NCBI GenBank assembly: GCA_902780865.1
Contig: CACZHC010000033.1
Span: 1 to 47,036, forward strand
Direction: 5' to 3'
DNA from: an uncultured bacterium
Lineage (GTDB): Bacteria > Verrucomicrobiota > Kiritimatiellia > RFP12 > UBA1067
DNA length: 47,036 nt
In this document: positions 7,967 to 46,780 of the stretch, in pieces
Layout of the letters: the number at the start of each line of letters is the position of its first letter
How positions within the stretch are numbered: the first letter of the stretch is position 1
Notes under the pieces: model-generated
What the model was told of the DNA's origin: nothing
The model's input: the letters and a program-made list of their open reading frames with translations, nothing else
The model's database searches: none
Made by a program: the position numbers and the translations under genes

Positions 7967-7972
7967 GCGTCA

Positions 7973-11397: not shown

Positions 11398-11432
11398 TTT
11401 GAGCTTTCGTGCATTCGCACAGAAGTTCAAAG
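11398..11432. repeat. 35-bp hairpin repeat upstream of the AAA ATPase gene, copy 1
   Basis: Imperfect palindrome with TTTGA...TTCAAA ends and a GTGC-ATTC-GCAC core. It matches a second copy at 11476-11510 at 31 of 35 positions. The two copies bracket the promoter of the downstream gene. Confidence 0.75.
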
Positions 11433-11438
11433 TCTCAC

Positions 11439-11467
11439 TTGACCTAAAACCAGCAAATTGATATACT
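11439..11467 (+). promoter_or_regulatory. Sigma70-type promoter of the AAA ATPase gene
   Basis: TTGACC, a 17-nt spacer and TATACT, the best canonical promoter in the window. The predicted start site falls at about 11474, immediately before the second hairpin copy, so the transcript would begin with that hairpin. Confidence 0.75.
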
Positions 11468-11475
11468 ACTTCCGT

Positions 11476-11510
11476 TTTGAACTTCCGTGCATTCGCACAC
11501 AACTTCAAAG
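11476..11510. repeat. 35-bp hairpin repeat upstream of the AAA ATPase gene, copy 2
   Basis: TTTGAACTTCCGTGC-ATTC-GCACACAACTTCAAAG type palindrome, second copy, lying in the predicted 5' untranslated region just before the ribosome-binding site. It could hold the leader in a folded state or mark an element boundary. Confidence 0.75.
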
Positions 11511-11523
11511 CGGAGACTGTTTT

Positions 11524-12855: not shown

Positions 12856-12964
12856 CAAACCACAGACCAGCACCCGCCGTCTTCACCTTCCGCGCATTTT
12901 CAATCCGGTCCCCGTACTCCTTCTTGAACTCGCGCACAAACCGCCCGGCATCAACCGCCCGCAT
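12812..12964 (-). CDS. Possible 50-residue ORF or gene remnant
   Basis: A minus-strand frame starts with ATG at 12964 behind GAAGGTGAAAA and encodes a Lys/Arg-rich peptide (MRAVDAGRFVREFKKEYGDR at the N terminus). It overlaps the 3' end of the ATPase gene by 44 bp. The first 35 residues look protein-like, the tail does not. It may be a remnant of a larger gene or a chance frame. I do not recognise it. Confidence 0.2.
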   Translation of the reverse strand: MRAVDAGRFVREFKKEYGDRIENARKVKTAGAGLWFATAFPAIGGRGERA

Positions 12965-12988
12965 TTTTCACCTTCACATAAACAAGGA

Positions 12989-13009
12989 GACGCAGCGTCC
13001 CGCTGCGTC
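12989..13009 (+). terminator. Hairpin downstream of the AAA ATPase gene
   Basis: GACGCAGCG-TCC-CGCTGCGTC, a perfect 9-bp stem with a 3-nt loop, not followed by a T-run. It could end or protect the ATPase transcript. Confidence 0.45.
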
Positions 13010-13024
13010 AAAGGGTAGCACCAA

Positions 13025-13057
13025 CTCGCCTAATCTGCATTTGTCAGATTAGGCGAG
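13025..13057. terminator. Bidirectional hairpin between convergent genes
   Basis: CTCGCCTAATCTG / CAGATTAGGCGAG, a perfect 13-bp stem with a 7-nt loop, between the plus-strand ATPase and the minus-strand MurC-like gene. No clear T-run follows on either side. The position suits transcript termination in both directions. Confidence 0.5.
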
Positions 13058-13139
13058 CCTGACAGCTTAACAAACACCTCTACTTCTCGTGCCTACCGGT
13101 CGGGCTTAAGGGGCAGGCGGGGCCAGGGATTTTGAACAC

Positions 13140-14312
13140 CTACAAACTTGCAATGCGCTTAGCAAGAAGCGGGAGGCCGGGGTCGCGCGCGCCTGCCGTC
13201 GCGAACGCGGCGTATTTGCCGCGGTTAGCCGCAATCCAGTCGAACGCCGCATCGAGATCACCGACAAGTTCGACGCGCGAAGGATCGAGCTTCGCCGCAA
13301 GCGCATCGGAGTTTATCGAGCGGTCGGTCGTGCCGCCAGCATCGTAGACCGGAAGCAAAAGCAGCTTGTCCTGCGGACGGATCACCTCGGCAAACATCTC
13401 GGCGAGCGCGTCCATCATCTTCCTGAGCGGCGCGTAGCCGTGGGGACGCCATACGACGCAAAGCCCGCCAGAGTAGCGCTCGGCGAGCGTCAGCCACATC
13501 GCGCGCAGCTTCTCCGGATTGTGCGCGTAGTCGTCGTAGACTCGTTCGCCGTATTTCTGCAGCCGCCGCTCGACGCCGCCGAAACTCTCCATCGCCTTCT
13601 CCGCCTCGGCGCGGCCGCAGCCAAGTGCGACTGCCATGCGGACGGCGAGCGAGGCGTTCTGGCGGTTGAAGTCCTGCGGGCGGTATGTCTCGCCGCGAGC
13701 GTCGACGACGGGGCCAGGGCAGTCCTTCACAAACGCATCGAAGACCTCGTCCATCTCCTCTTTCGAATAGTGGTCGGCGGAGGCGTTCGTCACGATTGCC
13801 GCGTAGGGGCTGAACGCGACGAGGGACTTGTCGCTTTCATCTACCTCTGCAACGGCATATTCGCCCTTCCCGAACCTGACAGCCCCCTGCCAGCCGGGGA
13901 CGTTCGCGCCGTTGACGCACATCGGGTCGAGCCCGCATGTCGAGAGAACGTGGCCGAGCATCGCGGTGACGGTCGACTTGCCGCAAGTGCCTACGACGGC
14001 GACAAGCTTGTAGCCGGAGAGCGCGCGGGCGAGGGCTTTCGCGCGGTGGGTCACGGGGATTCCAAATTCCTTGGCACGCGCAAGCCCGGGATTCGTGTCC
14101 TCAATCGCAGTCGACACGATCACCTCGCCAGTGGACGCGTCGATTCCGCTGCCGTCGTCAGGGAAGCAGCGAATTCCGAGAGACTCGAGAAATCCTATGT
14201 TCGGAGTGTCGAGATTGCGATCGGCGCCGGTCACTTCGTCGCCGAGACGGACAAGCGCCGTCGCGAGGGCGCTCATGCCGACGCCGCCGATGCCGATGAG
14301 ATGACGCTTCAC
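13140..14312 (-). CDS. MurC-like Mur ligase (UDP-N-acetylmuramate--L-alanine ligase family)
   Basis: Mur-ligase fold, 390 residues. An N-terminal IGIGGVGMSALA nucleotide-sensing motif (6-17) is typical of MurC/Mpl. The ATP loop reads GTCGKST (108-114) instead of the usual GTHGKTT. The central domain has AEVDESDKSL and VTNASADHYS, and the C-terminal domain has YDDYAHNPEKLRAM, the counterpart of MurC DDYGHHP, then VWRPHGY and LPVYDAGG. It is shorter than MurC (usually 450-490). It probably attaches an amino acid or peptide to a UDP-sugar in the cytoplasm, but the altered ATP loop and isolated position outside a dcw cluster make a specialised role possible. Confidence 0.8.
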   Translation of the reverse strand: MKRHLIGIGGVGMSALATALVRLGDEVTGADRNLDTPNIGFLESLGIRCFPDDGSGIDASTGEVIVSTAIEDTNPGLARAKEFGIPVTHRAKALARALSGYKLVAVVGTCGKSTVTAMLGHVLSTCGLDPMCVNGANVPGWQGAVRFGKGEYAVAEVDESDKSLVAFSPYAAIVTNASADHYSKEEMDEVFDAFVKDCPGPVVDARGETYRPQDFNRQNASLAVRMAVALGCGRAEAEKAMESFGGVERRLQKYGERVYDDYAHNPEKLRAMWLTLAERYSGGLCVVWRPHGYAPLRKMMDALAEMFAEVIRPQDKLLLLPVYDAGGTTDRSINSDALAAKLDPSRVELVGDLDAAFDWIAANRGKYAAFATAGARDPGLPLLAKRIASL

Positions 14313-14734
14313 TGGATCTGTATCGTGCGCTGCTCGTAGTGGCCGGGCTGCCAGGTACGAAGAACGGTGCCGTTCGGCTGGACCGTGTCGACGTAGCGGC
14401 CCTCGACCCAGACGTTCTGGGTCTGGTAGACGGGCTGGGCGACGACGACGGGCTGCGACACCACTACGGGCTGCTGCACGACGACAGGCGCTGGAGCCAC
14501 GACAGTAGGAGCCGGCGTCACGACCACTGGCGCGGGAGTCGACACAGCGCTTGCGACAAGACCGCCGAGGAGCGCGCCGCCAACGATGCCCGCGGCAATT
14601 GCGCCGCCGCTGCCGTGGTGGTGATGGTGGCTCGTGTGAACCGAGACGTGCGGCGGCCTATATGGGGCGTGTCCCCTGGCCAAAAGCGTAGAAGCGGCAA
14701 CAAGCGCTATCGCGAAAACAATGACTTTCTTCAT
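14309..14734 (-). CDS. Small secreted Gly/Val/Pro-rich protein with YXWGXW-like motifs
   Basis: A 141-residue exported protein. A clear Sec signal peptide (about 1-19) is followed by SHHHHHGSGG, a glycine-zipper-like hydrophobic stretch (GAIAAGIVGGALLGGLVASAV), a low-complexity VVV/PAP/QQP region and a C terminus with VWVEGRYVDT...WQPGHYEQR, similar to the aromatic repeats of YXWGXW proteins. Its 3' end overlaps the start of the MurC-like gene by 4 nt. The ATG has AGGAGG about 8 nt upstream, and GGTATAAT lies at 14771-14778. It probably sits in the envelope; the His cluster could bind metal. Function unknown. Confidence 0.8.
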   Translation of the reverse strand: MKKVIVFAIALVAASTLLARGHAPYRPPHVSVHTSHHHHHGSGGAIAAGIVGGALLGGLVASAVSTPAPVVVTPAPTVVAPAPVVVQQPVVVSQPVVVAQPVYQTQNVWVEGRYVDTVQPNGTVLRTWQPGHYEQRTIQIQ

Positions 14735-14770
14735 GACTTGCTCCTCCTTTGGGGATTCGTAGGCAAGTAG

Positions 14771-32765: not shown

Positions 32766-35531
32766 TCAGCGAATGACGACGCTCAACCCGCTCGGCGCGG
32801 ACTCGTAGCATCCGATGTCCGGCGCGCGGCCCTGCACACGCTTTTTGCCGAGAAGGTCGAAGGACGCGATGCCGTCGTAGGCGATGCCCGCGTTGACAAG
32901 CGGAGAATCCAACGCCGGGCGCCAGTCGCCGCCGGAGAAATCGCGGAAGAACTCCGCCGCTGTCCCGGCGATACACTTATCAGTAAGCTCTTCCCCTCCG
33001 TCGCTCGCGCAGTGCGAGGCGTTTGCGAGTGTGCCCTTGAAGCCGATGTCGTTCCACATCGGATTGTTGTCGGCATCTGGATAACGGCAAGTGCATACGC
33101 ATCCAGCCACTACGACATTCGTAGCTACGCCATTTGGATAAAGGTAGATACCGCCAACCCAAGGTGCCTCATTAGTAGCGACGGTGCTATTTAGAATACA
33201 TCCTCCATTCTGGATAGTGACGCCACTGCTCCATGACTGCTTGTCCTGACCACCCATGCCAGCCGTCGACAAATCCCTGTTGTTTGCGATAAGGCAATTG
33301 GCAACCGTTCCTTTCTCGACATGGACGAACATCCCGCCGTAGCCACCATCCGTCGTCTGGTATCCAAAACCGTTGGCGCTATTGTTGGTGATTACGCAAT
33401 GGGTGAGGAGGGCGTTTTTCGAATTGAGCCACGCGCCTGTGCCACGTGCATAGTTTCCAGTTGAAGTTGCGCTTCGAATGATGCAGTTTGACACCGTGCC
33501 CCCTGCGCTGTCAATTGAGACGTTTCCGCCATACGGGGATCCCGGTGCATACCGATGAGCGTTTTCAATAGACAAATTCGCCACCAGCGCCCCGGCATGG
33601 TTCACCATAAGCGCAATCCGATTCTTGCTGTTGTCAATATTGTCCGCATGGATAACGACCTTCTCGGGATCGCCGGCAACACCAAGAACGGCGATGGCAT
33701 TCGAGATGGAGACGGTTCCAGCATACACGTATGTTCCAGGCGCGACATGGACCGTGCCATACCCGGACGAGTTGGCAAGCGTATCAATAGCCGCTTGAAC
33801 TGTGAGCTTGGGTGACGATTCAAAGTATCCGTTGTATTCGTCGTTCCCCATGGTTGAGACATACTGTATTGACGCATCAGCCCCAGGCGGGGTAAACACG
33901 GCCCGAAGGGAGCGTGCCGCGGTTATTGACGGAGAAATACTCATAGCGGAAATGTCAGCAATACCCTCTGTATCGCCCACCCATCCCCAGAAATCACAAC
34001 CAGATTCAGGGGTTGCTGTGATTGTGATGGTTTCTGCGTTCCTCACCCAAGCGTTTCCAACGGAAACCGTCCCGCCGGATGTCGCAGAGACCGCGACAAG
34101 CCATTCGTTTGTGAAATGCCACACGAGTTCATCCCGTTTCACATGCGTATAAGGAAAGGACGATGTACCGCCCTCTTGTCGAACTGCCTTTACACCTGTT
34201 ATTGGGTCTACAATCTCATAGTGCGTATACCCCGTGCAGATCCAGCGTTCAGTTGCCTCCTCGTCATAAACAGGCAAGGCAACAGACGCAGTGAACGAAT
34301 CGCCCGCCGCAATGGCGGTGATCGTACCGTAGGCAGGATCGGAAGTGCCGAGATTCTCGGGATCTCCTGATACGATAAGTGAAGCAGTGTCAGACACAAC
34401 GGTGCCGAAGGAGAGAAATCCGAGGTTGCCAACAGTATCGTAGTCCGCGGCTATCCAGTCCTCCGAGCGAATCGAAGAAGACACCCTCACCTCGTCAAGA
34501 TCGCCAAGCCAACCTCCTGTTCCGTTGGAATTTGCCCCAATGCCAAGCGAAAGTCCCGACTTCGTTGCGCCATTCGCGCCGGAAACGTCAACAGAAAAGG
34601 GAGCTCCATTTGTGTAGACATCACGATAGCTCGCGTAGGAGACATCGACTTTCTGCCAGCCACCGCCACTTTGACTTCCAGGAAACGACGACATCTCTTT
34701 CTTAATATTCGAGCCTCCGTAGACGACAAAACGGGAATAACTAGACGTAAATCCAAATGCCCAACCGGCTACCTTCCCTGTCAAGTCAGACTTTGATCCA
34801 AGAATCGTATCGTAATACATGCTACCGTTATGTCGAACCCAGGCGGAAGCCGTGAAGTTTGCATTCCAATGGGTGTCCATATATTCAATCCAGCCTGGGA
34901 CGCAGACACCAGCCCCGCTTCGGCTGGAAGCCGTTGCTTTGCGCGCACCACCGATGGCGCCATCGGAGATGTGGCTAGACTGCACGTTGTTCGTGCCGTG
35001 GAGGGCATTGGCCGACGAATCACGGGAATAGCCAATAACCCCATCTACCAGCGTTCCGACAGTCCATCCAGCAGGATCTTGCTCCCCGAGGTGCCAAACT
35101 CCGACATATCCAGCATCGACCCACATCTGACCGCTCGTTGTATATGCAGGCGCAGCGGTAATTGAGTCGTCGCCCCAGTTCATGCGAAACGTGGTACTGT
35201 ATTTCATAGACGGGAGAAGGACCCACACGAGCGATTCGCCGTCCGTATCCCAAGTGTCGATTTCGTGCGGGTAGGTTGTCTCGCCGTCGGTCGAGGTAAA
35301 CGCTAAGTCCTTGCCGTCGGACTGAAGCTGCGAATAGGAGAAGCCTGTGATTCTGGTTTTGCTGATCCGCACAAGGACTGGAAAGTTCGCAAGCGTCGCA
35401 CGGTTCGCGTCATAGCCCACGACTGTGAGATCGCAATACGATGAAAAGTCAGCCCATGCGGGCATCGCGGCGAAAAGGACAAGACACGAAGCCCAACATC
35501 CAGCTTTCAGAGTTCTGACGAGATGCGCCAT
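32766..35531 (-). CDS. Large secreted surface protein: DUF2341, LamG-like, InlB-like repeat, parallel beta-helix
   Basis: 921 residues from the ATG at 35531, with AAAGGAGCAGTAAA just upstream. Signal peptide (to about 26). DUF2341 domain (about 30-125), concanavalin/LamG-like domain (about 190-365), a repeat-like section with GGTVSVGNAWVRNAETITITATPESGCDFWGW (InlB B-repeat type; about 500-550), and a right-handed beta-helix (about 560-890) with GNVSIDSAGGTVSNC. It ends in DIGCYESAPSGLSVVIR. It probably binds polysaccharide at the cell surface; no catalytic residues are evident. It follows the GLUG protein by 48 nt on the same strand, so the pair is likely co-expressed. Confidence 0.85.
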   Translation of the reverse strand: MAHLVRTLKAGCWASCLVLFAAMPAWADFSSYCDLTVVGYDANRATLANFPVLVRISKTRITGFSYSQLQSDGKDLAFTSTDGETTYPHEIDTWDTDGESLVWVLLPSMKYSTTFRMNWGDDSITAAPAYTTSGQMWVDAGYVGVWHLGEQDPAGWTVGTLVDGVIGYSRDSSANALHGTNNVQSSHISDGAIGGARKATASSRSGAGVCVPGWIEYMDTHWNANFTASAWVRHNGSMYYDTILGSKSDLTGKVAGWAFGFTSSYSRFVVYGGSNIKKEMSSFPGSQSGGGWQKVDVSYASYRDVYTNGAPFSVDVSGANGATKSGLSLGIGANSNGTGGWLGDLDEVRVSSSIRSEDWIAADYDTVGNLGFLSFGTVVSDTASLIVSGDPENLGTSDPAYGTITAIAAGDSFTASVALPVYDEEATERWICTGYTHYEIVDPITGVKAVRQEGGTSSFPYTHVKRDELVWHFTNEWLVAVSATSGGTVSVGNAWVRNAETITITATPESGCDFWGWVGDTEGIADISAMSISPSITAARSLRAVFTPPGADASIQYVSTMGNDEYNGYFESSPKLTVQAAIDTLANSSGYGTVHVAPGTYVYAGTVSISNAIAVLGVAGDPEKVVIHADNIDNSKNRIALMVNHAGALVANLSIENAHRYAPGSPYGGNVSIDSAGGTVSNCIIRSATSTGNYARGTGAWLNSKNALLTHCVITNNSANGFGYQTTDGGYGGMFVHVEKGTVANCLIANNRDLSTAGMGGQDKQSWSSGVTIQNGGCILNSTVATNEAPWVGGIYLYPNGVATNVVVAGCVCTCRYPDADNNPMWNDIGFKGTLANASHCASDGGEELTDKCIAGTAAEFFRDFSGGDWRPALDSPLVNAGIAYDGIASFDLLGKKRVQGRAPDIGCYESAPSGLSVVIR

Positions 35532-35579
35532 TTTACTGCTCCTTTCCATAGATTGACTTACATAAGGCGACGTGCGACA

Positions 35580-37082
35580 TCACCTAAGAAAGACGCGAAA
35601 ACCTGCAGCCCATGGCTGTGTCACAAAACAGGCAAGTTCTGGCGCGATGAGATCATCGCCGAGGCGCCCCAACATCCACCGCTCGTAACCTTCGGTGGAT
35701 TCAGCGACAGCATCAAGCGCCTTGCATGCTTTAGACTGGTCATACCCTTCGGCATCGGCAGCCTGGACGCTGGTTACGACTGGCTCCTTGGTGGACGACG
35801 TATACAGCCTCGAGGTCGGCACCCAGACATTTGTGAATTCAATAATTACGCCATTACTTGTCCCACTCGAAGCCTTGGCCATGATTTGCCCCGCATTTCC
35901 TTCTTCCCCAGTTGTGATGGAACCATAAGTGGCGCAGTTGCGGACATGGAGCTGCCCGCGATTGTAGCCCGCGTTCCAGCTGACGGTGCCGACCAGTCCG
36001 CCGACGTTGTTTGTGCCCGTAACGTTTCCGTAGTTCGCGGAGTTAAAGAGAATACTTCCGTTCCCGACGCTCTTCCCGTATTCGGAGATTTCGCCGACAA
36101 AACCGCCAGCCGTCGCGGCGCAGAGAATGTTGCCCCGGTTTACACAACCAGAGAACTCGAGGGAGATGGAGCTCGCGTGCGCAACGAAGCCAGCAGCACA
36201 GGAACTTTGCGAATTCGACGCCGTGATGTCCGATTCGTTGGTGCAATCAACGAACCGAATGATGCCGTCCTGTTGCTTTTCTCCGTTTCCGCCAACGGTT
36301 CCGACGAACCCGCCAAGTCGCGATAATTTTGCCGATTGCGACATCGTCCCCGCATTGACACACCGGACGAACGCCACTTCCGGAATCGAAGTCGAGACCA
36401 CGTTATCAATCTTGCCGACAAATCCACCTTTGCCACGCGCGGAATAGTCGCCGGACGTGACGAGGATTGTGGCATTGTTGGTACAATCCGTGAAACCCGC
36501 GATCGTCCCTTCCGCAACATTGCAAGTAATATATCCGACAAAACAGCCGACTGTGGCGTTCGCCGTAGCCGATCTTACCACGCAGCCGACATCAGTCGAG
36601 CAGGAGGAGAAGACGGATCCCTCGTAAGCGATTCCGGCAAAAAGCCCCCCGTACCCCGCAGTGCTGACACGTAATGTATAGCCCGCGACCTTGCAGCCGA
36701 CAAAGTCCCCGCCATCGCAGACAACGCAGAAAATACCGGCCGTGGAATCAGCCTTCCATTCCGTATTTACTCCAGATACAGCGCCGTCTATCGTCAGATT
36801 TGCAACATGCCCGGCGTTTGTCACAAAGAGCGACTGCGCACCAAGTCCGGTGATTGCATGTCCCTGACCGTCGAGAGTTCCTGTAAAATTCGGGACGGTA
36901 GTATAAGCCGAATCCGCGAGGTCGATGTCAGCAGTCAGAGCATGGCTTCCTGCCGAGTCCTGCGACATTGCAGCCACGAAATCGGATGCGGTTGCGATTT
37001 CAGCGCCGCGCACGTTCCATGAGAGGGCAGATATGCACACCGCAACGGCGAATGCAATCGACTTCACAGTACTTTTTTTCAT
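35580..37082 (-). CDS. Secreted GLUG-repeat adhesin-like protein
   Basis: 500 residues with a Sec signal peptide (about 1-27). After GTLDGQGHAITGLG it has at least seven GGFVGxI-type repeats (GGLFAGI, GCFVGYI, GGFVGKI, GGFVGTV, GGFVGEI, GGLVGTV and variants) typical of GLUG motifs in secreted adhesins. The C terminus reads AAGFRVFLR, similar to SGLSVVIR at the end of the neighbouring protein. CGGAGG precedes the ATG, and a TTGTCT-17-TACAAT promoter lies upstream. Probably a surface-displayed beta-rich protein binding plant material. No enzymatic motif seen. Confidence 0.82.
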   Translation of the reverse strand: MKKSTVKSIAFAVAVCISALSWNVRGAEIATASDFVAAMSQDSAGSHALTADIDLADSAYTTVPNFTGTLDGQGHAITGLGAQSLFVTNAGHVANLTIDGAVSGVNTEWKADSTAGIFCVVCDGGDFVGCKVAGYTLRVSTAGYGGLFAGIAYEGSVFSSCSTDVGCVVRSATANATVGCFVGYITCNVAEGTIAGFTDCTNNATILVTSGDYSARGKGGFVGKIDNVVSTSIPEVAFVRCVNAGTMSQSAKLSRLGGFVGTVGGNGEKQQDGIIRFVDCTNESDITASNSQSSCAAGFVAHASSISLEFSGCVNRGNILCAATAGGFVGEISEYGKSVGNGSILFNSANYGNVTGTNNVGGLVGTVSWNAGYNRGQLHVRNCATYGSITTGEEGNAGQIMAKASSGTSNGVIIEFTNVWVPTSRLYTSSTKEPVVTSVQAADAEGYDQSKACKALDAVAESTEGYERWMLGRLGDDLIAPELACFVTQPWAAGFRVFLR

Positions 37083-37232: not shown

Positions 37233-38654
37233 TCAGAACAGGTTCGAGAACCAGTTCCCGCCGGCAGTCGACTTGTAGCCGACCCACGGCTTGCCGCCCG
37301 CGAGGACCTGGCGGGTCTTCTCGTCGAACGTGGCGCGCATGCCCGTGCGAAGCGCGGCGTTCGACATGATGAGCGCGATGGCGTGGCTGTAGCCGGCCTC
37401 GACGGGCGCGTGCGGATCCTTGCGGGCGCGGACGCACTCCATCCAGTTGCGCATGTGCGCGGATGTGAGCGGATCGCCACCGGTGTTGGCGGAGACGACG
37501 ACCTGCTCCTGCGGCGCGGGCAGGGGCTCGCTCTTCGGCTCGACGCCTTCCACGCCCTCGTTCGTGACGCAGCCCTTGCCGAGATCGATGCAGCCGTTCG
37601 GGCCGAAGTACTTCTCGACCGCGGACTCGCGGTTCGGCATTGAGCCGCCGGCGCAGTTCGTCTGGTGCGACTGGAACATGACCTGGAAGCCCTTCCCCTT
37701 CACGCCAGACTCGCCGTACTCGAGAAGAGTCGTGAACGTGTCGTAGCTCTGGCGCCCGTCGACCCACTGGTAGAGACCGCCCGACGAGACAGCCGTCTTC
37801 GGATACGGCTGCCCGAGGAACCAGGCGACAGTGTCGATCTGGTGGCACATCCACTGACCGGTGACGCCCGACGAGAACGGCCAGAAGAGGCGGAACTCGA
37901 GGTACTTGCGCGGATCGAACGGATACTCCTTCGGGTCGCGGTCGAGGAGCCACATGTTCCAGTCGACGTCCTCCTCCTTGAGCGAGGCGATGAGCTTTTC
38001 GTCACGGCGCCAGCGCTTGGGCTGGTTGACGTTCCACGTGAGGTGCACGTAGCTGATGTCGCCGAACTTGCCGGTATTGATGTAGTCCTTCGCGGCCATG
38101 TACTTCTTGCCAGAGCGGCGCTGCGAGCCGATCTGGAGGATGGCGCCCGGCTTCATAGCGCCGTTCGCGCGCTTGGCGTTGACGGCGTCCAAGAGCATGT
38201 TCGCTGAGTACATGTCCTCGGCGATCGGCTTCTCGCAGTATGCATCGCAGCCCGCCTCGATCGCGTGCACCGCGTGCTGTGCGTGCTGGAAGTCGGCGGT
38301 GGAGATGATGACGGCGTCGAGCCCAAGGCGGTCCTTAGCCTCGTAGAGCGCGATGTCACTTCCGAACGCCTCGACATCGTGGCCAAGCTTCGCCTCCATC
38401 TCGGGTTTCGCGTGCTCGTAGAGGCGCTTCTTCCAGAGGTCCGCGACTGCGACCATCTCGAAGTTAAGCTCCTTGTTGTGGTGCAGGAAGCACGGCAGCA
38501 GCGACCCGCGGAAGCGGTCGGAGTAGCCGACGCACGCGACGCGGATCTTGTTGTTCGCGCCTGCGGCGTAGAGCGAGGGGCCGTACCCGGCGGCGATGAT
38601 GCCGGCGAGGCCAGCGGCTCCCTTGCAGAATTCACGACGATCTATCTTTTCCAT
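37233..38654 (-). CDS. Tat-exported Gfo/Idh/MocA family oxidoreductase
   Basis: 473 residues. A twin-arginine leader (DRREFCKGAAGLAGIIAAG, 5-23) precedes the Rossmann domain with VACVGYSDRFRG (nucleotide binding) and the EKP motif (141-143, in YCEKPIAED). The C-terminal alpha/beta domain shows FRLFWPFSSGVTGQWMCHQID. NAD(P) would be co-exported in a folded protein. The start overlaps the upstream stop as TGATG, and the gene is last in the four-gene operon. Likely oxidises or reduces a sugar released outside the cytoplasm. Substrate unknown; the Tat signal is strongly supported. Confidence 0.9.
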   Translation of the reverse strand: MEKIDRREFCKGAAGLAGIIAAGYGPSLYAAGANNKIRVACVGYSDRFRGSLLPCFLHHNKELNFEMVAVADLWKKRLYEHAKPEMEAKLGHDVEAFGSDIALYEAKDRLGLDAVIISTADFQHAQHAVHAIEAGCDAYCEKPIAEDMYSANMLLDAVNAKRANGAMKPGAILQIGSQRRSGKKYMAAKDYINTGKFGDISYVHLTWNVNQPKRWRRDEKLIASLKEEDVDWNMWLLDRDPKEYPFDPRKYLEFRLFWPFSSGVTGQWMCHQIDTVAWFLGQPYPKTAVSSGGLYQWVDGRQSYDTFTTLLEYGESGVKGKGFQVMFQSHQTNCAGGSMPNRESAVEKYFGPNGCIDLGKGCVTNEGVEGVEPKSEPLPAPQEQVVVSANTGGDPLTSAHMRNWMECVRARKDPHAPVEAGYSHAIALIMSNAALRTGMRATFDEKTRQVLAGGKPWVGYKSTAGGNWFSNLF

Positions 38655-39568
38655 CAGATGAGTCCTTTCATTGTTTCAATTGCGGTTTTTGCGTTCTTTG
38701 CGAAATCCTTTGCGTCGCCCCAGCCGCACTCGCAGCTGATGCCGCCCGAATAGCCGACGCGGCGAAGCGCATCGAAAAACGGCCTCATCCTTTCGACGAG
38801 CGCGGGGTCGTGCCCGGGGAAGAGGCGTGAGCCGTATTCGGCAACGTGTACGTGCTTCAGGAGCGGCCCCGCCTTCACGATCGCCTCCGGGTCGTCGCCG
38901 CCCATCTGCATGTGGAAGATGTCGGCGAGCTGCGCAAGGCGCGGAGAGTTCACCTCGCGGCAGATGGCGAGCCCCTGGAACACATAGTTTATTATGTTTG
39001 ATTCCTTCGGGCGCAGCGGCTCTATCACGAGCTGCGTCGTCTTGAGGTCCTCGACGCGCTTCACGAGCGCGCGGCAGAACTCGGCGTATTGGCGCGCACC
39101 CTCCTCGAGGTCAGGACGATCCTCCGCCTTGGAAGCCGTGAAGTCGCCCGGCACGTTCCTGGCGCCGCCGGAACCGAACACAACCGTCTTCACGCCGACC
39201 TCGTCCGCACGGCGAAGCGCAATCTCGGCGTAGTCGAGGGCGGGTCCGGGATCGGCCTTGGGACCGGTGATGCGGTGGCTCCACTGGAGAAGACCGTTGC
39301 TGCTTCTCAGGGGAAGCGGGCGCTTTGCGATCTCCTCCTTCTGGTTCCGCCACCACGCCTCGTCCTTGTCCGGGCCAAACGCAGGGCCTGCGCCCCACTC
39401 CCAGAAATCATAGCCGAGATCGCGCATGATAGTCACGTCCTCGACGGACGAGCGGCACGCGCCGAAGAGGACGCGCCCCTTCCCGCCCTTGCCGCCAGCA
39501 AGTCCTGTGCAGCCGGCAATCCCGGCCGCCGCAAGCGAGCCGATCAGAAAATCACGTCTACCTGTCAC
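38654..39568 (-). CDS. Tat-lipoprotein sugar isomerase/epimerase (xylose isomerase-like TIM barrel)
   Basis: 304 residues starting at a GTG (39568) behind AAAGGAG; the GTG overlaps the upstream TGA as GTGA. N terminus TGRRDFLIGSLAAAGIAGC (2-20) has a twin arginine and a lipobox with Cys20, so it should be exported folded and lipid-anchored. The AP-endonuclease-2/xylose-isomerase-like barrel has metal-site candidates in VIEPL, IFHMQMGG, HVHVAEYG and SCECGW. Members act as sugar-phosphate or keto-sugar isomerases/epimerases. Adjacent to an exported oxidoreductase and translationally coupled to it. The reaction is not known. Confidence 0.85.
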   Translation of the reverse strand: MTGRRDFLIGSLAAAGIAGCTGLAGGKGGKGRVLFGACRSSVEDVTIMRDLGYDFWEWGAGPAFGPDKDEAWWRNQKEEIAKRPLPLRSSNGLLQWSHRITGPKADPGPALDYAEIALRRADEVGVKTVVFGSGGARNVPGDFTASKAEDRPDLEEGARQYAEFCRALVKRVEDLKTTQLVIEPLRPKESNIINYVFQGLAICREVNSPRLAQLADIFHMQMGGDDPEAIVKAGPLLKHVHVAEYGSRLFPGHDPALVERMRPFFDALRRVGYSGGISCECGWGDAKDFAKNAKTAIETMKGLI

Positions 39569-42500
39569 TTCTTCGCTCCTTTCGTTTTTTGTTTGGAAAA
39601 TGTCCTGTCCGCAAAGTCGAGAGCCCATTTCCAGTCGTAGGGCGAAAGCCCGTGCTCTTCAGTCCGACGCACGTAGCCGAACGGAGGAACCGCCGCAACA
39701 TCGTCATACGGCTCCGGTTGGACGCCGTCAAACGCGACGTCCGCTCCCAGCGCGCGCCACACCGGCGCCGCGGCCTGCGCGGCGAGCCACTCCCCGCGCG
39801 GGTCGAACCACTTCTTGTCGTAGCATTCGAGCAGCAGCGCGCGCGGCGCGACGCACGCGAGCAGCATGTGCTGGTCGAACGGCATCTCGCGCTCGCGCCC
39901 CGCCCACTTCCAGAGCCCCGCGCAATACCACCACGGGAACATGATGCGCTGCGCCGCGATGCACTCGCCGTAGTCGCGCTTCATGAGCTGCACTCCGACG
40001 GCCCCAGTTTGGTTTGCAACGCACCCGGCGAAGCGCTCGTCGAACGCCGCCGCGAGGAGCGCGGCCTTTCCGAGACGCGAAGACCCCACGACGACGCTGC
40101 GCGCCGCGTCGATCTCTTCGACGCCCTCCGCGAGGTCGAGCCCGCGGCAAAGCCCCCACGCCCAGGCCATGATCGCGCCGGTGTTGTCCGTCCGCTTCGG
40201 ATCTCTCGCGCCCCAGAGCGCGAAGAGCCCGTCAAGCGGCTCGCCCGGCCTGCCGGGGCCGTCGGACGACATCTGCTTGTAGTTCGCGGACATGAAGACG
40301 TACCCTCTCGCGGCGAACTCGCCGAGCGGAAGCACGAAGTGGTTCGTGCGGCCGGATGCGACAAGATCGTTGCCCTTGTAGTTGAGATGGAGGATCACGG
40401 GGCACGGCTTCTTCGCGTGGCGCGGGACGAACACGATCCAGTCAACGCACGGCCCAGACTTGTCCGCGCGGAACCACTGGCGGTAGCGCCGTTCCGTCGC
40501 AAAGCGGTCTTCCGTGATCTTCTCCGAGACGAGCTCGAATACCATCGCGTCGGGCTTAGGCGGCATGCGGCCGTACACCTCGCGCTCGAAAACGCCGAGG
40601 ATTTCCTTGCGGCGCTCCGCCCAGTCCGCCGCGCTCGCGACTTTGCGTCCGTCGGAGAAGACGAGCGGGTCGGGAATCTCGTAGTCCTTGCCAAGCACTC
40701 CCGCCTTCGACTCGTCGTAGTTGATTTCGACGAAGCCGGTTTCGTTAGTCCAGAACCGGATGGGATTCTGCTCGACGGGAGTCCGCTCGATTCTCTGTAC
40801 CTTCATCGGCATCACGAGCGCGCGCTCCTCTTCCGTCACCCACGGCGTCGCTGGCGCGGCGCATTTGCCGCGGAACACGAGACTGACGGGGCCGAGAAGT
40901 CCGGACGGCTGGAGCTTGTCGGAAACCGAAGGACCGGAATGGATCGTCGGCAGGAGCGGCCAGCGGCTCTGGTCTTTCGGCTTGCGGCGCGGAACGTTCC
41001 AGTAGTGCACGGTCGAGCGCGTGACCCGATTTTCCGCCGGGAGGAAGCAGTCGCCGACGAGTCGGTTGTACCAGTTGTTCGTGTAGCGAATCTCGATCTC
41101 GTTTTCGCCCTCGCGCAGCGCGGAAGTGACGTCTGCCTCCCACGGCGCACACCACACGACGCCGCAGTCCTTCCCGTTCACGAAGACGTGCGCGAGTCCC
41201 GTAGGAAGTTCGCCGAGGGAAAGGATTGCATTGTTTGATTGCTTGATTGTTTGACTGTCTGATTGACGGACTGACAGGACGGTTCTGTATGTGGCGGCGC
41301 CGGAGAAGTAGCGAAGCTCCGTGCTCGCCGCCTTGCCGTCCTCGCCGAAGCTCGTCCAGTCGCGCAGCGTCTCCATCGTGACAGGCGCCGGCGGCGCGGC
41401 GGATATGCCGCGGTGGTACGCGAACGAAACGTTCCAGGCGTTTGTGACGGGATGCATGGTTATGCAAGTTGGAGTTTTAAGTTGGAGTTGGAGATCGGAA
41501 TGTTCCTTTCTCGAACTCCAACTCTTTTCTCCAACTTCTTTCAATCCTGTCTGAAGATCTCTCGGCGCAAACACGACAAACGCGCTACCGCCGACGGGCA
41601 GGTCGAGTTCTACGCGCGTCTTGCCGCCCTGCAGGGCTTCTGCCGCCGCCACCTTGCGCGTCGTCGTGACAGGATCCCAGATCTCAACTGCGCACCCTTC
41701 GCACGACGCGTTGAGGACGACATCGCCCTTCCCCTCCCCGACGACGAAGAACCAGTCTGCGTCTCCATCGCGGCGGTGGGTCGTAGTGAACTGCGCCTTG
41801 TCGTCCTTGCGGTAACGACCCCACCCGTGGTAGTTGGTCGAGACGTTGACGAATTCTCCATCGTCGACGTATTCGCCGCGCTGCAATAGCGCCTGGCAGC
41901 GCCAGAGGTAGTTGATGAACGCGACGGCGTCATCGTGCCACGTGACGTTGCCGTTGATGTGGGTCCCTGCGAAGTACTCCGCACCAGGAACGCCGAACTT
42001 CTTCGGAGAGCACGAGTACGTGTGCCAGACGAGGCGGTTCGCGCCGTCGACGAACGCAATGTCGGCAAGCGGCTTAAGCGTCGACGGTTCAACGGACCAG
42101 TGGCGGAGCATGTGGGTGAACGCCTCCAGGGAGACGATGCTCCGGCCTTCGCGCCGAGCGGAAAGGACTGCCGCACGCTGGTAGAAGCGGCCGCCCCTGT
42201 TCGCATGCCGCGCGAACGGCCCCTCGAGGCAGTCGTCGAGCACCCAGAATTCGCCTTGCGGGAAATCGTTGTGCGCGAGAAGGTCGAGCTGGTCGCAGTC
42301 GAGCTTCGCCGCCTTCGCGCCGAACGCCCACGGCCCGCCAGATTCGGAAAAGACCTTGAGCCCATGACTGTGGGCCCAGTCCTTCATCGTCGCGTAAAAA
42401 GTGTCCTTGATCGCGCTCCAGCTCCCGCCGGTCTTGACGCTTCCCTCGTAGCTGACGGAGTAGATGTGCGTGAAGGTCGTGCCGACAAGCTCGGGAACGC

Positions 42501-42936
42501 GCTTGAGAAGCGGCCCTACGGCGCGATCGAGGTGCGCGACCACTTCGTCGCGGTTCATGACGTCGGTCTCGTACTCCTTGCCGTCGACGAAGCCGTTGAG
42601 CGTGCCGCCGCTCGCGGAGGCGTTCATCGTGAACTCAAGTCCGAGACGTGCGCACTCGCGGATGGAAAACTCGACAAGATCGTACCACCCTTCGGTGCCC
42701 CAGACAAGCTCGGCCTTGGGATTGACGACATGCTCGTCGTTCTCCCAGTAGCCGCGCGAGTCGATCATGAGGATGCCGCCGAAGCCGAGGCGCTTCATCG
42801 ACTCGAGGTCGGCGGTGATCGTCTCGCGGTCGGCATGCCCGTTGACCCACCACCAGTAGCACCAGGGGCGAGACTCGGCAGGCGGCGTCGCGAACGCCGA
42901 CCAAAGCGACAGGAACGCCGAGGCGAGCAACATCAT
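39565..42936 (-). CDS. GH106 alpha-L-rhamnosidase-like and CE15 glucuronoyl esterase-like fusion
   Basis: 1123 residues with a short Sec leader (1-17). N-terminal two-thirds resemble GH106: RPWCYWWWVNGHADRETITADLESMKRLGFGG (start) and FNASASGGT-type NASASGGTLNG, followed by a jelly-roll sugar-binding part with HVFVNGKDCGVVW and NEIEIRYTNNWYNRL. From about residue 760 the chain is a CE15 esterase: GSSRLGKAA with nucleophile Ser953, NQTGAVG, and PFDQHMLLACVAPRALLLE near the catalytic His region. Two in-frame word repeats (near 41225-41275 and 41462-41550) lie in the linking parts. Together, the domains would cut rhamnose and hydrolyse glucuronoyl esters. Start overlaps the upstream stop as ATGA, with GGAGGG upstream. 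Confidence 0.82.
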   Translation of the reverse strand: MMLLASAFLSLWSAFATPPAESRPWCYWWWVNGHADRETITADLESMKRLGFGGILMIDSRGYWENDEHVVNPKAELVWGTEGWYDLVEFSIRECARLGLEFTMNASASGGTLNGFVDGKEYETDVMNRDEVVAHLDRAVGPLLKRVPELVGTTFTHIYSVSYEGSVKTGGSWSAIKDTFYATMKDWAHSHGLKVFSESGGPWAFGAKAAKLDCDQLDLLAHNDFPQGEFWVLDDCLEGPFARHANRGGRFYQRAAVLSARREGRSIVSLEAFTHMLRHWSVEPSTLKPLADIAFVDGANRLVWHTYSCSPKKFGVPGAEYFAGTHINGNVTWHDDAVAFINYLWRCQALLQRGEYVDDGEFVNVSTNYHGWGRYRKDDKAQFTTTHRRDGDADWFFVVGEGKGDVVLNASCEGCAVEIWDPVTTTRKVAAAEALQGGKTRVELDLPVGGSAFVVFAPRDLQTGLKEVGEKSWSSRKEHSDLQLQLKTPTCITMHPVTNAWNVSFAYHRGISAAPPAPVTMETLRDWTSFGEDGKAASTELRYFSGAATYRTVLSVRQSDSQTIKQSNNAILSLGELPTGLAHVFVNGKDCGVVWCAPWEADVTSALREGENEIEIRYTNNWYNRLVGDCFLPAENRVTRSTVHYWNVPRRKPKDQSRWPLLPTIHSGPSVSDKLQPSGLLGPVSLVFRGKCAAPATPWVTEEERALVMPMKVQRIERTPVEQNPIRFWTNETGFVEINYDESKAGVLGKDYEIPDPLVFSDGRKVASAADWAERRKEILGVFEREVYGRMPPKPDAMVFELVSEKITEDRFATERRYRQWFRADKSGPCVDWIVFVPRHAKKPCPVILHLNYKGNDLVASGRTNHFVLPLGEFAARGYVFMSANYKQMSSDGPGRPGEPLDGLFALWGARDPKRTDNTGAIMAWAWGLCRGLDLAEGVEEIDAARSVVVGSSRLGKAALLAAAFDERFAGCVANQTGAVGVQLMKRDYGECIAAQRIMFPWWYCAGLWKWAGREREMPFDQHMLLACVAPRALLLECYDKKWFDPRGEWLAAQAAAPVWRALGADVAFDGVQPEPYDDVAAVPPFGYVRRTEEHGLSPYDWKWALDFADRTFSKQKTKGAKK
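41225..41275. repeat. Word-like repeat in the GH106-CE15 gene, first
   Basis: ATTGTTTGATTGCTTGATTGTTTGACTG words encode RQSDSQTIKQSNNAI in frame. Low GC contrasts with the flanks. Confidence 0.7.
41462..41550. repeat. Word-like repeat in the GH106-CE15 gene, second
   Basis: AAGTTGGAGTTTTAAGTTGGAGTTGGAG followed by the complement words (CGAACTCCAACTC...CTCCAACTT) makes an inverted pair. It is in frame, encodes KSWSSRKEHSDLQLQLKTPT, and uses the same TTGGAG words as the intergenic blocks. Confidence 0.8.
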
Positions 42937-44453
42937 TTGCCCTCCGTAACCACGACCGTCTCGATGCCAAGGGCGCGGCCGAGCTTCTTCAGTTCAGCCG
43001 CATGGTGGCCGACGCCGAGCGCGAAGTGGTGGGTCGGGCCTTCCATCGACCAGTTCCTGAGGAACGTGCGGACGTCCGGCGGGAACTTGCCGTGGGTGTT
43101 CGTGTTGCCTGTCGGGGGGATGGGGCCTGCGAGCGACTCACCCTCGGCGACGATGAACTTGAACGAGCCGTCCGCCTTGAGCCCGAGGGACATCATGGTG
43201 ATCGGCCCTTCCTTGATGTTGAACTCGACGCCCGCGCCGCTTCCGGGCTTGCCGTGGTACTTCTTGAGCGAGCGGAGGACGGGTTTCTTCGAGGCGATGT
43301 TGAGATGGTGGGGGCCGTCGTGCCCGACGAGCACCGTGTCGCGCTCGAAGTCTATCGGGTGGAACTCCGCGAAGCTGCCGCCGATGTTGAGTCGGTCGAA
43401 GATCATCATCGCGACGCAGTTCTTGAGGTCGAACTCGCCGCACATCGGGAAGCCGGCCGAGGTGAGAAGCGAGTTGCCGACGATGAAGTTGGTGACGAGC
43501 TCGCGCGTCGGGGAGCCTGCCTCGCCCTCGTAGTAGTAGGCAAAGCCGTCGAGGTTGCGCTTCTCGATGAACTTCTCGAGCGCGCAAGCGGCCTTTGCCG
43601 CGACGTCGAGGTCCTTGGCCGTCAGCTTCTCGGTCCAAGGGTCGGAAACGGGATCTGGGGTGTCGAAGAAGTCGAGGATGCGCTTTTTCATCGCCTCGAC
43701 GTCCGCCGCGACTGGCTCGCGGTAGAAAGGCATGATTTCGTCTGGCTCGCACAGGGCGACGTGGCAGCCGAACGTGCGCGAAACGGCAGTCGGGTCGACC
43801 TGCATGTCGTACATCGCCTCGAGAACGTGGCCCATGAGCCCGATGCGCGCGCGCCTGAGGTCGTGCAGCACATGCGCGACGGCGCACCACTGGCGAATCT
43901 CCTCTTCGGCCTTCGCGTCGCCGTCGAGCTTCCCGATGACTACGTCCGCGACCGGACGCTCATAGCGTATGGCGACGCCCGTGAACTCGGGAACGGAGCA
44001 GAGGTCGTCGTTCAGGAGCTGCTTGTAGATTGTGGCGTGCTCGTAGTCGAGGCGCGAGTCGGGCTGGAGAGCGACAAGGACGATCGGGCACTTAAGCTCG
44101 CGCACGAAAGGTGCGAAGGTGGAGCTCGTCGCATAGGTCACCATGTCGACGAAGAGGAGGTCGAGGTCGGCCGACTTCATCGCAGGAATGAGCGACGCGG
44201 CCTTCTCGGGATTGTCGGAAATGCCGAACGAAGTGACGTTGACGTCGTGCGACTCTACGCGCTTCTCGAAAACGTTCGCCTTCTTGAGCATGTCGTCGTA
44301 GAGACCAGGGCACTGCTTCCAGTAGGTGTCGAGACCTACGGACACGACGCCGACGTTTGCGGTAAGCGGCTTTCTCCTCTTTACGCGCGGCGGCTCTGCG
44401 AGCACAACCGCACAGCAAACTGCCAAGACCATCGAAGTTGCTTCCTTGCACAT
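42933..44453 (-). CDS. L-fucose/L-arabinose isomerase-like protein with a signal-peptide-like N terminus
   Basis: 506 residues from the ATG at 44453 (GGAAGGA at about 10 nt). The N terminus MCKEATSMVLAVCCAVVLAEPP looks like a Sec signal; the mature part starts with the isomerase domain TANVGVVSVGLDTYW. L-fucose/arabinose isomerase features: FGISDNPEKA, IVLVALQPDSRLDYEH, IGLMGHVLEAMYDMQVD, GEFDLKNCVAMMIFDRLNIGG (metal-site Glu and Asp region), GHDGPHHLN, and a C-terminal THHFALGVGHHAAELKKL. Isomerases of this type are normally cytoplasmic. First gene of the coupled operon with GH106-CE15; divergent from the AraC regulator. TTGTAC-18-TAAAAT is the predicted promoter. Possible rhamnose or fucose isomerisation outside the cytoplasm is inference. 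Confidence 0.8.
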   Translation of the reverse strand: MCKEATSMVLAVCCAVVLAEPPRVKRRKPLTANVGVVSVGLDTYWKQCPGLYDDMLKKANVFEKRVESHDVNVTSFGISDNPEKAASLIPAMKSADLDLLFVDMVTYATSSTFAPFVRELKCPIVLVALQPDSRLDYEHATIYKQLLNDDLCSVPEFTGVAIRYERPVADVVIGKLDGDAKAEEEIRQWCAVAHVLHDLRRARIGLMGHVLEAMYDMQVDPTAVSRTFGCHVALCEPDEIMPFYREPVAADVEAMKKRILDFFDTPDPVSDPWTEKLTAKDLDVAAKAACALEKFIEKRNLDGFAYYYEGEAGSPTRELVTNFIVGNSLLTSAGFPMCGEFDLKNCVAMMIFDRLNIGGSFAEFHPIDFERDTVLVGHDGPHHLNIASKKPVLRSLKKYHGKPGSGAGVEFNIKEGPITMMSLGLKADGSFKFIVAEGESLAGPIPPTGNTNTHGKFPPDVRTFLRNWSMEGPTHHFALGVGHHAAELKKLGRALGIETVVVTEGK

Positions 44454-44588: not shown

Positions 44589-45464
44589 ATGCAAAGCAGA
44601 TACAAGTATTTCCCGATAAGCGCAGCACAGTCCTCATGGGGACTGTACATAACATGCGCCGGGCACGGCAGATCGGAACCAAACGCCGTGTTCCCCTCGC
44701 ACGCGCATCCCGACCAATACTTCTTCTCGTGGAAAGTCGGGCGCATCCTGCGGGAATGGCAGATCATCCTCATATGCGACGGCGAGGGCACGGTGGAATT
44801 CAAGAGCCGCCGGTCCCGCGTCCGCAAGGGTTCGCTGATCGTGCTGCCGCCTGGATGCTGGCACCGCTACCGCCCGAACCCGAAGACGGGGTGGACGACG
44901 CTGTGGATCGGATTCGGCGGCGAACTCGCCGCGCGGATTCTCGGCGGAGCGGGATTTGGCCCGGACGGCGAAGTGCGCGACATCGAAGAAGCGCGTCGAC
45001 TGCACCAGCTCTTCGCGGGCACAGTGTCGTATATCCTCGACAACGGCCAGACCGCAGTGTTTTCAGCCGCCGCGAGGATCCCGATGCTCGTAGCCGCGAT
45101 AATCGAGGACTGCCCTTCGAACAAGGAGCAGACGGCTAACGCCGACCTCGTTAGACGCGCCCAGACGTTCATCGCCGAAAACTCGGCAGGAATAGTCGAC
45201 TTCGCGTCGCTCGCCGAGTCGCTCGGCATCGACTACCGCTCGTTCAGGTATCTCTTCAAGAAGGAGACTGGCTTCTCCCCTCTCCAGTACCAGCTCGCCG
45301 TACGGCTAACGAGGGCGAAAAACCTGCTTAGGTCGAGCGACATGCCGGTCTCGGAAATCGGCAGTACGCTCGGTTTCAACTCGACATGGTACTTCTCGCG
45401 CTTCTTCAGGCAGCAGACCGGCATGCCGCCGATCACCTACCGGAAGAAGCATACCGGGGAGTAA
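44589..45464 (+). CDS. AraC family regulator with N-terminal cupin
   Basis: 291 residues. The N-terminal sensor is a cupin: HPDQYFFSW, GEGTVEF, GSLIVLPPGCWHRYRP. C-terminal AraC HTH pair: DFASLAESLGIDYRSFRYLFKKETGFSPLQYQ and VSEIGSTLGFNSTWYFSRFFRQQTG. This layout is that of arabinose/rhamnose-type activators. Only about 6 nt follow the -10 box, so it may be leaderless. Divergent from the isomerase operon by 135 bp and convergent with the CE7 gene, so it probably controls the isomerase, GH106-CE15 and exported enzyme genes. Ligand likely a pentose or deoxyhexose, inferred. Confidence 0.92.
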   Translation: MQSRYKYFPISAAQSSWGLYITCAGHGRSEPNAVFPSHAHPDQYFFSWKVGRILREWQIILICDGEGTVEFKSRRSRVRKGSLIVLPPGCWHRYRPNPKTGWTTLWIGFGGELAARILGGAGFGPDGEVRDIEEARRLHQLFAGTVSYILDNGQTAVFSAAARIPMLVAAIIEDCPSNKEQTANADLVRRAQTFIAENSAGIVDFASLAESLGIDYRSFRYLFKKETGFSPLQYQLAVRLTRAKNLLRSSDMPVSEIGSTLGFNSTWYFSRFFRQQTGMPPITYRKKHTGE

Positions 45465-45499: not shown

Positions 45500-46780
45500 T
45501 CACCGAGGCGAGAAAAGCCAGCGTTCGAAGTCGGTGTCCTTCTGCCAGGTGTGGCCGACTCCAGGAAGGAGCAGGAGCGACTTGTCCTTGGACGCAAGCG
45601 CATTGAACGCGGCGATTCCGCCTTCCGTGTTGCAGTTGTCGTCCGCAAGGCCGTGGATCATGCGGATAGGAGTGCGGATGAGGCGCGCGAAATTGCATGC
45701 GTCGTAGTATGGAGCCGTCTGCTCGGCGGCCGGACGGTGCTCCGGCGTCTGGTCGAGGATGTGCTCGCTACCGGGCACGCGCCCTTCGCGGTATGCCAGC
45801 ATGTCGCACATGTTGGGATAGAAGACGAGCGACTTCGCAAAGCGGCCCCAGAGCGACGTGAGGTAGAGCCCGTAGCCTCCTCCCTGGCTGCCGCCGAGGT
45901 AGACGAAGCGAGCGGCGTCCGCATAGGGTTCCTTCGCCAGCCAGTCGAGAATGCGCGCCATGCCGAGGATTGAGTTGTGGTAGATGGGCTTGTCGCGTCC
46001 GGCGGCGAAGCCGAACCGCTGGTACGTGGCCTCGCCGCTCTCACGCACAAGCGCGTCCCGCCAGGCCTCGAAGCGCTTCTTCTGCTCTTCATTCGTCTTG
46101 CCTGACGGAAAACCGTGGATGTTGATCGTGAGCGATATCCAGCCCTCGCGCCGATGCGACGGCGCAATCAGACCGGCGCCCGCCCCAGGCACAGTCACGC
46201 ACACGGGGAACGGCCCGTCGCCCTTCGGCACGGACATTATTCCATAGACTCGTCCGCCGCCGAACGTTGCGGCGCTCACGCGAAAGGCGACGCGACCGGG
46301 CGTGTCGAGGTCAGGGGCAGGCACCTTCTCAATTGCGGCCGGCACCTCGCTCTCAAGCCTGGCCCGCTCGCCCTGCCAGTACAACTCGAAGTCGTCCGGG
46401 AACGGGGTGAGCGGACGGATTTCGTCAACGCCGAAAACTACACGGTCCAACTTCTCGCGCATGCCCTCCCCGCGCAGGTGGATCCGCAGCGTGCCAGGCG
46501 TCGCGCGCGCAAGCGTAAACTTGAACGACGGTTCACTGGACATGTCGACCGAGCGTCGCCACACGACGTTCGTCCAGCCGTCGTCCACCCAGGCCTCCAC
46601 CGGGCCCTTCGGCTTTCCGCCGACTTCCTTAACAACGACCTCGACCGTAGCCGTGGCGCCGACAGCGTAGCATCCGTTGGCGGAATCCGTCTGGATGCTG
46701 AAATGCGCCGGTGCGGCGCCGCACGCCGCCGAAAGCACTGCGCCCGCTAGCACCGCAGGCAATTTCGCTTTGGCATTCAT
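45500..46780 (-). CDS. CE7 acetyl xylan esterase/cephalosporin-C deacetylase-like lipoprotein
   Basis: 426 residues. Signal with lipobox LAGAVLSAAC (Cys20), so envelope-anchored. An N-terminal beta-sandwich (about 25-125) precedes the CE7 hydrolase: SVPKGDGPFPVCVTVPGAGAG, nucleophile Ser298 in GGSQGGGYG, an Asp candidate in HGLADDNCN and catalytic His in GVGHTW. Removes acetyl groups from xylan or oligosaccharides. AGGAGAGG precedes the ATG. Alone on the minus strand, convergent with the AraC gene and between it and the 5S gene. It fits with GH10, CE15 and GH36 in the same region. Confidence 0.9.
   Translation of the reverse strand: MNAKAKLPAVLAGAVLSAACGAAPAHFSIQTDSANGCYAVGATATVEVVVKEVGGKPKGPVEAWVDDGWTNVVWRRSVDMSSEPSFKFTLARATPGTLRIHLRGEGMREKLDRVVFGVDEIRPLTPFPDDFELYWQGERARLESEVPAAIEKVPAPDLDTPGRVAFRVSAATFGGGRVYGIMSVPKGDGPFPVCVTVPGAGAGLIAPSHRREGWISLTINIHGFPSGKTNEEQKKRFEAWRDALVRESGEATYQRFGFAAGRDKPIYHNSILGMARILDWLAKEPYADAARFVYLGGSQGGGYGLYLTSLWGRFAKSLVFYPNMCDMLAYREGRVPGSEHILDQTPEHRPAAEQTAPYYDACNFARLIRTPIRMIHGLADDNCNTEGGIAAFNALASKDKSLLLLPGVGHTWQKDTDFERWLFSPR

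Follow-up and report, generated by a model that had tools for sequence, protein, structure and literature searches.

The isomerization of sugars is, in textbook accounts, a cytoplasmic step that follows uptake, and the literature that we searched (open-access full text only) contained no account of a sugar isomerase that is exported. Among the closest described systems, BT2158 of Bacteroides is a periplasmic glycoside 3-dehydrogenase (PMC11300592), and manganese-dependent TIM-barrel "sugar phosphate isomerase" proteins with a Gfo partner serve as β-eliminase for 3-keto-glycosides and, according to preliminary evidence, as hydratase (PMC10628242). Here, we analyzed a 47,036-nucleotide stretch (hereafter the window), one contig (CACZHC010000033.1) of the draft genome GCA_902780865.1 (3.36 Mb, 86% complete) of an uncultured bacterium whose close relatives are ruminant-gut Kiritimatiellae. 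Four head-to-tail minus-strand genes spanning positions 37233–44453 encode an isomerase (ISO), a GH106-CE15 fusion protein, a TIM-barrel protein of isomerase/epimerase type (TIM), and a Gfo/Idh/MocA oxidoreductase (Gfo), and an earlier note on this DNA had observed that all four N termini look exported. Comparison with relatives strongly supports predicted export of ISO, TIM, and Gfo and moderately supports that of GH106-CE15; the predicted export of ISO is the new part of the finding.

A family scan of ISO returned only weak matches, to the C-terminal domains of arabinose and fucose isomerases, and the protein scores 52.2 bits against the AraA equivalog cut-off of 622 (NCBIfam NF002795). We regard its fold as settled because the predicted structure (AlphaFold2; predicted local distance difference test score, pLDDT, 91) matches L-arabinose isomerase: the model superimposes on AraA (7cyy_B) over 462 residues with Z = 36.4 and a root-mean-square deviation of 2.4 Å, as expected for the three-domain AraA/FucI fold, and the next structural match is FucI/D-arabinose isomerase at Z = 27. 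Residues E340, E363, H378, and H476 of ISO align with E306, E333, H350, and H450 of AraA, which we take to be its metal ligands (two Glu and two His), and they are conserved in 88–89 of 89 homologues. ISO is a predicted aldose-ketose isomerase, metal-dependent and built on the L-arabinose/L-fucose isomerase fold. To this fold, ISO adds a leader of ∼20 residues at its N terminus: residues 25–28 align with residues 1–3 of AraA, and residues 1–18, the sole low-confidence segment of the model (pLDDT < 50), have no counterpart there.

As a chance baseline, we took 5313 Met-started segments from the interior of called genes; the ISO leader exceeds 99.9% of them in hydrophobicity. In the window, it has one lysine and one glutamate in the n-region, a short h-region, and VLA ahead of EPP; a second possible start, ATG at 44432, yields MVLAVCCAVVLA. 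To place the leader among its relatives, we drew on 80 loci in public genomes together with 145 genomes belonging to the order (loci and genomes are cited below by our own L and G numbers), with genes called by a codon-usage caller suited to GC-rich DNA. Nearly all Kiritimatiellae orthologues of at least 80% identity start out with a leader of classical form, such as MKKLVIAVIASMTAVAVFAESPRVARRKPL, and the leaders of the relatives are canonical (MKR.../MKK... with ADS/ADG), divergent in sequence and alike in type, as would follow if selection acts on the signal peptide and not on its exact sequence. Homologues from Lentisphaerota, Bacteroidota, Acidobacteriota, Planctomycetota, and Bacillota begin at the equivalent of ISO residues 22–24 (MKIERRKPL), and no leader of the ISO type was found in homologues from other phyla, with the exception of one Opitutales record. 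In a phylogeny of 89 homologues, the leadered proteins are nested among leaderless ones, and the distribution of the leader requires 4 changes (3 of them forced by supported branches) compared with about 15 in shuffles. Because every deep branch is leaderless, the leader was most likely gained during evolution, and its absence from distant homologues would reflect this gain rather than a wrong start.

A wrong start in the annotation of ISO was considered and rejected, because no start codon occurs between the leader and the first β strand, the next one falling within that strand, and because relatives conserve the leader. It could also be argued that the leader is an uncleaved membrane anchor or is inactive in export, so that ISO is cytoplasmic like its leaderless distant relatives; the short h-region and the single lysine and glutamate in the window would fit. 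We find this improbable, given that the closest orthologues carry textbook leaders (MKR/MKK, a hydrophobic stretch, and small residues) that differ in sequence and that the leadered copies adjoin exported hydrolases, never the cytoplasmic partner.

That partner is a GH42-like protein, which adjoins leaderless ISO homologues in 23 of 62 loci and leadered ones in 0 of 15, whereas GH106 adjoins leadered ISO in 6 of 15 loci and leaderless in 4 of 62; other leadered copies stand next to WbsX-esterase or DUF6259 proteins. The GH42-like protein is itself leaderless, is ∼810 residues long, and occurs across several phyla (e.g., L068:9487–11961 and L022:5620–8049). It has no sequence match in Pfam, NCBIfam, or the PDB, and at the level of the fold its model (pLDDT 88) resembles the GH42 and GH164 glycosidases; the family is possibly an undescribed family of glycoside hydrolases. 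Our reading, drawn from few independent events, is that a cytoplasmic pair of glycosidase and isomerase became an exported pair of hydrolase and isomerase. Tested on the tree, the association of leader and neighbor comprises 3 independent pairs only, too few for significance.

TIM and Gfo begin with TGRRDFLIGSLAAAGIAGC, a Tat leader with a lipobox, and DRREFCKGAAGLAGIIAAGYGPSLYA, a Tat leader; their motifs, GRRDFLI and DRREFCK, are of the S/T-R-R-x-F-L-K type (PMC3383694), and a Tat-like motif is found in 1.4% of the 5313 internal segments. Every TIM and Gfo orthologue examined has an RR-x-F motif with a hydrophobic stretch after it, roughly half of the TIM proteins have the lipobox cysteine as well, model TIGR01409 scores above its cut-off in one TIM (L137) and one Gfo protein (L139), and the window genome encodes TatC. 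We place the TIM start at the GTG at 39568 because in most relatives the alignment begins at that point, and nothing in them corresponds to the extension that an upstream ATG would add. The leader of GH106-CE15, MMLLASAFLSLWSAFA, is short, hydrophobic, and uncharged, lacks a basic residue, and offers only ∼13 residues ahead of the conserved GH106 N terminus; 3.5% of the internal segments are equally hydrophobic. For the leaders as a whole, conservation across relatives is stronger evidence than the chance test. In this respect the earlier note has held up: homologues that lack the leaders and start further downstream would have spoken against it, and the TIM and Gfo homologues of the order retain the Tat leader while the Sec leader of ISO is mostly retained in Kiritimatiellae and absent from distant homologues. 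Where the four products actually reside is our deduction from these leaders.

By comparison of the orthologues, export of TIM and Gfo is well supported and ordinary for the group. Some 12 of 20 Gfo/Idh genes sampled in the window genome carry Tat leaders, so an exported Gfo is nothing out of the way here; with BT2158 as a precedent, the view that a co-exported NAD-dependent enzyme is the unusual element of this operon is not supported. Judged by its sequence, Gfo belongs to the Gfo/Idh/MocA superfamily, with a Rossmann domain (PF01408), the EKP lysine, and a histidine in the C-terminal domain; K142 of the EKP motif, H271, and the motif GQWMCHQID are invariant (24 of 24), and identity within the genus is mostly 75–96%. 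The putative metal ligands of TIM (E203, D236, H261, and E300, numbered from the upstream ATG) are likewise present in 24 of 24. TIM and Gfo are adjacent on the same strand in 37 of the 55 genomes that hold both; TIM precedes Gfo in 20 of these and follows it in 17. Within the genus, the pair mostly stands next to housekeeping-type genes (hisA, coaD, and others) or next to SDR, MFS, and RraA-like genes. In G128, G110, and G126, these last encode a gluconate-5-dehydrogenase-like SDR, a galactonate-type MFS transporter, and an RraA-like protein (Table 1), possibly a route for uptake and breakdown of the TIM-Gfo product.

By analogy with BT2158, Gfo may oxidize a sugar or glycoside at C3. The best NCBIfam score of Gfo is to the BT_2158_fam glycoside 3-dehydrogenases (NF058561; E = 6.9e-18), at 64.5 bits against a cut-off of 750, and 8tdf/8tdh are among its top PDB matches, although 3ec7 scores slightly better. 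An exported pair for inositol-type or sugar-acid epimerization (IolG/IolO-like) in place of 3-keto-glycoside enzymes is an alternative that we judge unlikely, but one with several points in its favor. The nearest named family of TIM is IolO (NF041099; E = 5.6e-15, 55.4 bits against a cut-off of 300), with TM0416 and ketose 3-epimerases also among the best matches; Gfo matches IolG at E = 1.3e-13, below the cut-off; and the SDR, MFS, and RraA-like neighbors in the three genomes would suit such a pair. Against it stands the BT_2158_fam score, which is below its cut-off as all of these scores are, together with the two PDB matches.

In the fusion protein, the GH106 part exceeds the PF17132 cut-off (151 bits vs. 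29), and at ∼660 residues it is compact compared with the ∼1100 of solved GH106 enzymes: three stretches align with the solved member, the first two of them lying too close together to accommodate the ∼315 residues that separate them in the solved chain; a large inserted stretch is missing. The CE15 part exceeds the PF22244 cut-off (101.3 bits vs. 27) and matches PDB 6gry at E = 5.8e-56, with its GSSRLG motif (Ser nucleophile) aligned to GHSRLG of 6gry and the histidine of EEHGLSPYDW aligned too. It is nearest to free-standing CE15 proteins of relatives, that of G110 being 75–76% identical. Because the full fusion occurs in no other genome examined, an assembly artefact has to be considered; we give this next to no credence. 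In G128 and G110, both ends of the CE15 domain are kept in frame behind GH106 (ATPW..E and then WKWALDFADRTF.K), a scar left by an internal deletion, and the fusion therefore is real and existed in their common ancestor.

Gene order in relatives shows the operon to be composite, with one module, AraC-isomerase-GH106, joined to another, TIM-Gfo. Isomerase and GH106 stand together without TIM-Gfo in L001, L011, and L017, and GH106, TIM, and Gfo without the isomerase in G128 and G110. In L005 (G046; 7914–14740), isomerase and GH106 are followed by Gfo and TIM-barrel genes that belong to other subfamilies and each encode a Tat leader, a layout that hints at a functional link between the modules; as a single case, with some 40 Gfo candidates per genome, it could be chance.

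Our preferred reading, to which we assign a probability of roughly 0.6, is that the operon encodes an exported enzyme set for plant oligosaccharides containing rhamnose and uronate. The two modules would act together, at the surface of the cell or within the periplasm. There, the CE15 domain would open glucuronate esters, and the compact GH106 domain would release a terminal deoxy-sugar, probably L-rhamnose; ISO would turn a released aldose into its ketose outside the cytoplasm. Gfo and TIM, a separate and widespread exported pair, would carry out the putative oxidation with tightly bound nicotinamide that is taken on ahead of Tat export, and would process the keto product, by rearrangement or cleavage, through metal-assisted enolization; the products would then be taken up. 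The substrates, and the action of both modules on the same molecule, are what we infer from these likenesses.

Several observations weigh against this reading. None of the operon proteins reaches an NCBIfam equivalog cut-off, and so no substrate is assigned. The GH106 leader is weak, being short and uncharged; an isomerase of 82% identity (L012/L151) has no evident leader, nor do five members of the order near the leadered clade; and the association of leader and neighbor reflects only 3–4 independent changes. Among the genomes examined, all four genes are found together only in the window genome, and most relatives have TIM-Gfo away from both GH106 and the isomerase. A canonical rhamnose isomerase, RhaA, is encoded elsewhere in the window genome (and in 102 of the 145 genomes), so ISO is not needed to fill a gap in rhamnose catabolism, and we rejected the argument that it is the missing L-rhamnose isomerase. 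In view of the scattered gene order and of RhaA, the joint pathway of hydrolysis, isomerization, and oxidation proposed in the earlier note is unsupported as it was stated.

A rival account is that two unrelated exported modules came to share one transcript by an accident of rearrangement, ISO and GH106-CE15 serving one glycan and TIM-Gfo a general job on many substrates (e.g., 3-keto or inositol-type sugar chemistry). In many genomes of the genus, TIM-Gfo forms a unit of its own next to hisA, coaD, and further housekeeping-type genes; it has the SDR, MFS, and RraA-like neighbors in three and is missing from the three isomerase-GH106 loci, all as this account would have it. We nevertheless think it doubtful, since the order GH106-TIM-Gfo is retained in G128 and G110, with the 4-base overlap in G110, since an analogous Gfo-TIM pair follows isomerase and GH106 in L005, and since the overlapping genes make independent regulation unlikely.

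These overlaps (ATGA, GTGA, and TGATG), from which translational coupling of the four genes had been proposed, are confirmed by direct reading (Table 1), and the proposed coupling is supported; a clear, purine-rich ribosome-binding site lies just 5′ of the TIM and Gfo starts, and the end of TIM and the start of Gfo have one base in common in at least 10 genomes of the genus. Copies of the divergent AraC regulator that are 47–62% identical adjoin ISO in L002, L009, L010, L013, L014, L016, and L017, and the regulator is kept next to ISO at leadered and leaderless loci alike. Just upstream of it lies a gene for an AXE1-like esterase with a Sec-type N terminus (45500–46780, minus strand), which may belong to the same regulon. 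Directly downstream of the operon, two large proteins with leader-like N termini are encoded at 32766–37082 (minus strand), of which the one at 35580–37082 (minus strand) has no Pfam or NCBIfam match; the other occupies 32766–35549.

Table 1. Features of the operon and its surroundings in the window, and related features at other loci
Feature	Position	Strand	Remarks
Isomerase (ISO), 506 aa	42933..44453	-	L-arabinose/L-fucose isomerase superfamily; PF11762 and PF02952 above cut-off
ISO leader	44394..44453	-	MCKEATSMVLAVCCAVVLA-EPP
ATGA overlap, ISO/GH106	42933..42936	-	read directly; identical 4-base overlap in L017
GH106-CE15 fused protein gene	39565..42936	-	
Compact GH106 part (residues about 1–690)	40867..42936	-	PF17132, 151 bits
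CE15 (glucuronoyl esterase) part of fusion	39565..40734	-	PF22244; GSSRLG nucleophile motif
GTGA overlap, GH106-CE15/TIM	39565..39568	-	AAAGGAG just upstream; identical 4-base GH106/TIM overlap in L122
TIM-barrel isomerase/epimerase-type protein (AP_endonuc_2), from GTG start	38654..39568	-	PF01261, 90.5 bits
TGATG overlap, TIM/Gfo	38652..38656	-	AAAGGA upstream
Gfo/Idh/MocA oxidoreductase	37233..38654	-	PF01408, PF02894, and PF22725 above cut-off
Divergent AraC-family regulator	44610..45464	+	HTH_18 and AraC_binding; upstream of operon
CE15 in-frame deletion scars	L121:9185-9457; L122:8595-8867		two relatives
SDR, galactonate-type MFS transporter, and RraA-like aldolase by TIM-Gfo	L121:11814-14632; L122:3294-6196; L134:10657-13483		

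Taken further, and tentatively, at somewhat less than even confidence, the comparison suggests that a clade of gut Kiritimatiellota has moved the conversion of aldose to ketose outside the cytoplasm, through gain of a leader and a switch of partner, a cytoplasmic glycosidase giving way to an exported rhamnosidase/esterase, so that the sugar is converted, alongside exported Gfo and TIM, before uptake. If so, part of central sugar catabolism can shift to the periplasm in steps that can be traced to a handful of events in the phylogeny, and predictions of sugar sharing and transport from the genomes of rumen and gut bacteria would change; conversion outside the cell could, for example, deny the sugar to neighbors that take up only the aldose or match a ketose transporter. 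For this group, pathway predictions may err when they assign every isomerase to the cell interior.

Set beside the known systems, ISO has the whole-length fold and the four metal ligands in common with AraA and FucI but is only 17–19% identical to them and has the additional Sec leader. The fusion protein resembles GH106 α-L-rhamnosidases and CE15 glucuronoyl esterases at scores above the Pfam cut-offs and retains the CE15 serine motif, whereas solved GH106 members are several hundred residues longer than the GH106 part here. With BT2158 and its relatives, Gfo shares the exported Gfo/Idh architecture, the EKP lysine, and the CH motif; it differs in having GQWMCHQID where the solved 8tdh has GDMACHILH and in its partner, an IolO-like TIM barrel. 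AtOGE and AtHYD of Agrobacterium, a manganese-dependent 3-keto-glycoside eliminase and, on preliminary evidence, a hydratase, are also TIM barrels of the "sugar phosphate isomerase/epimerase" kind whose operon encodes a Gfo oxidoreductase as well (PMC10628242); TIM, with its E-D-H-E site, is nearer to IolO and the D-psicose 3-epimerases. Of the enzymes with a known reaction, the best matches of TIM are the 5-keto-L-gluconate epimerase IolO (TM0416) and the D-psicose/D-tagatose 3-epimerases, whose four metal ligands it retains and from which it differs in bearing a Tat lipoprotein leader.

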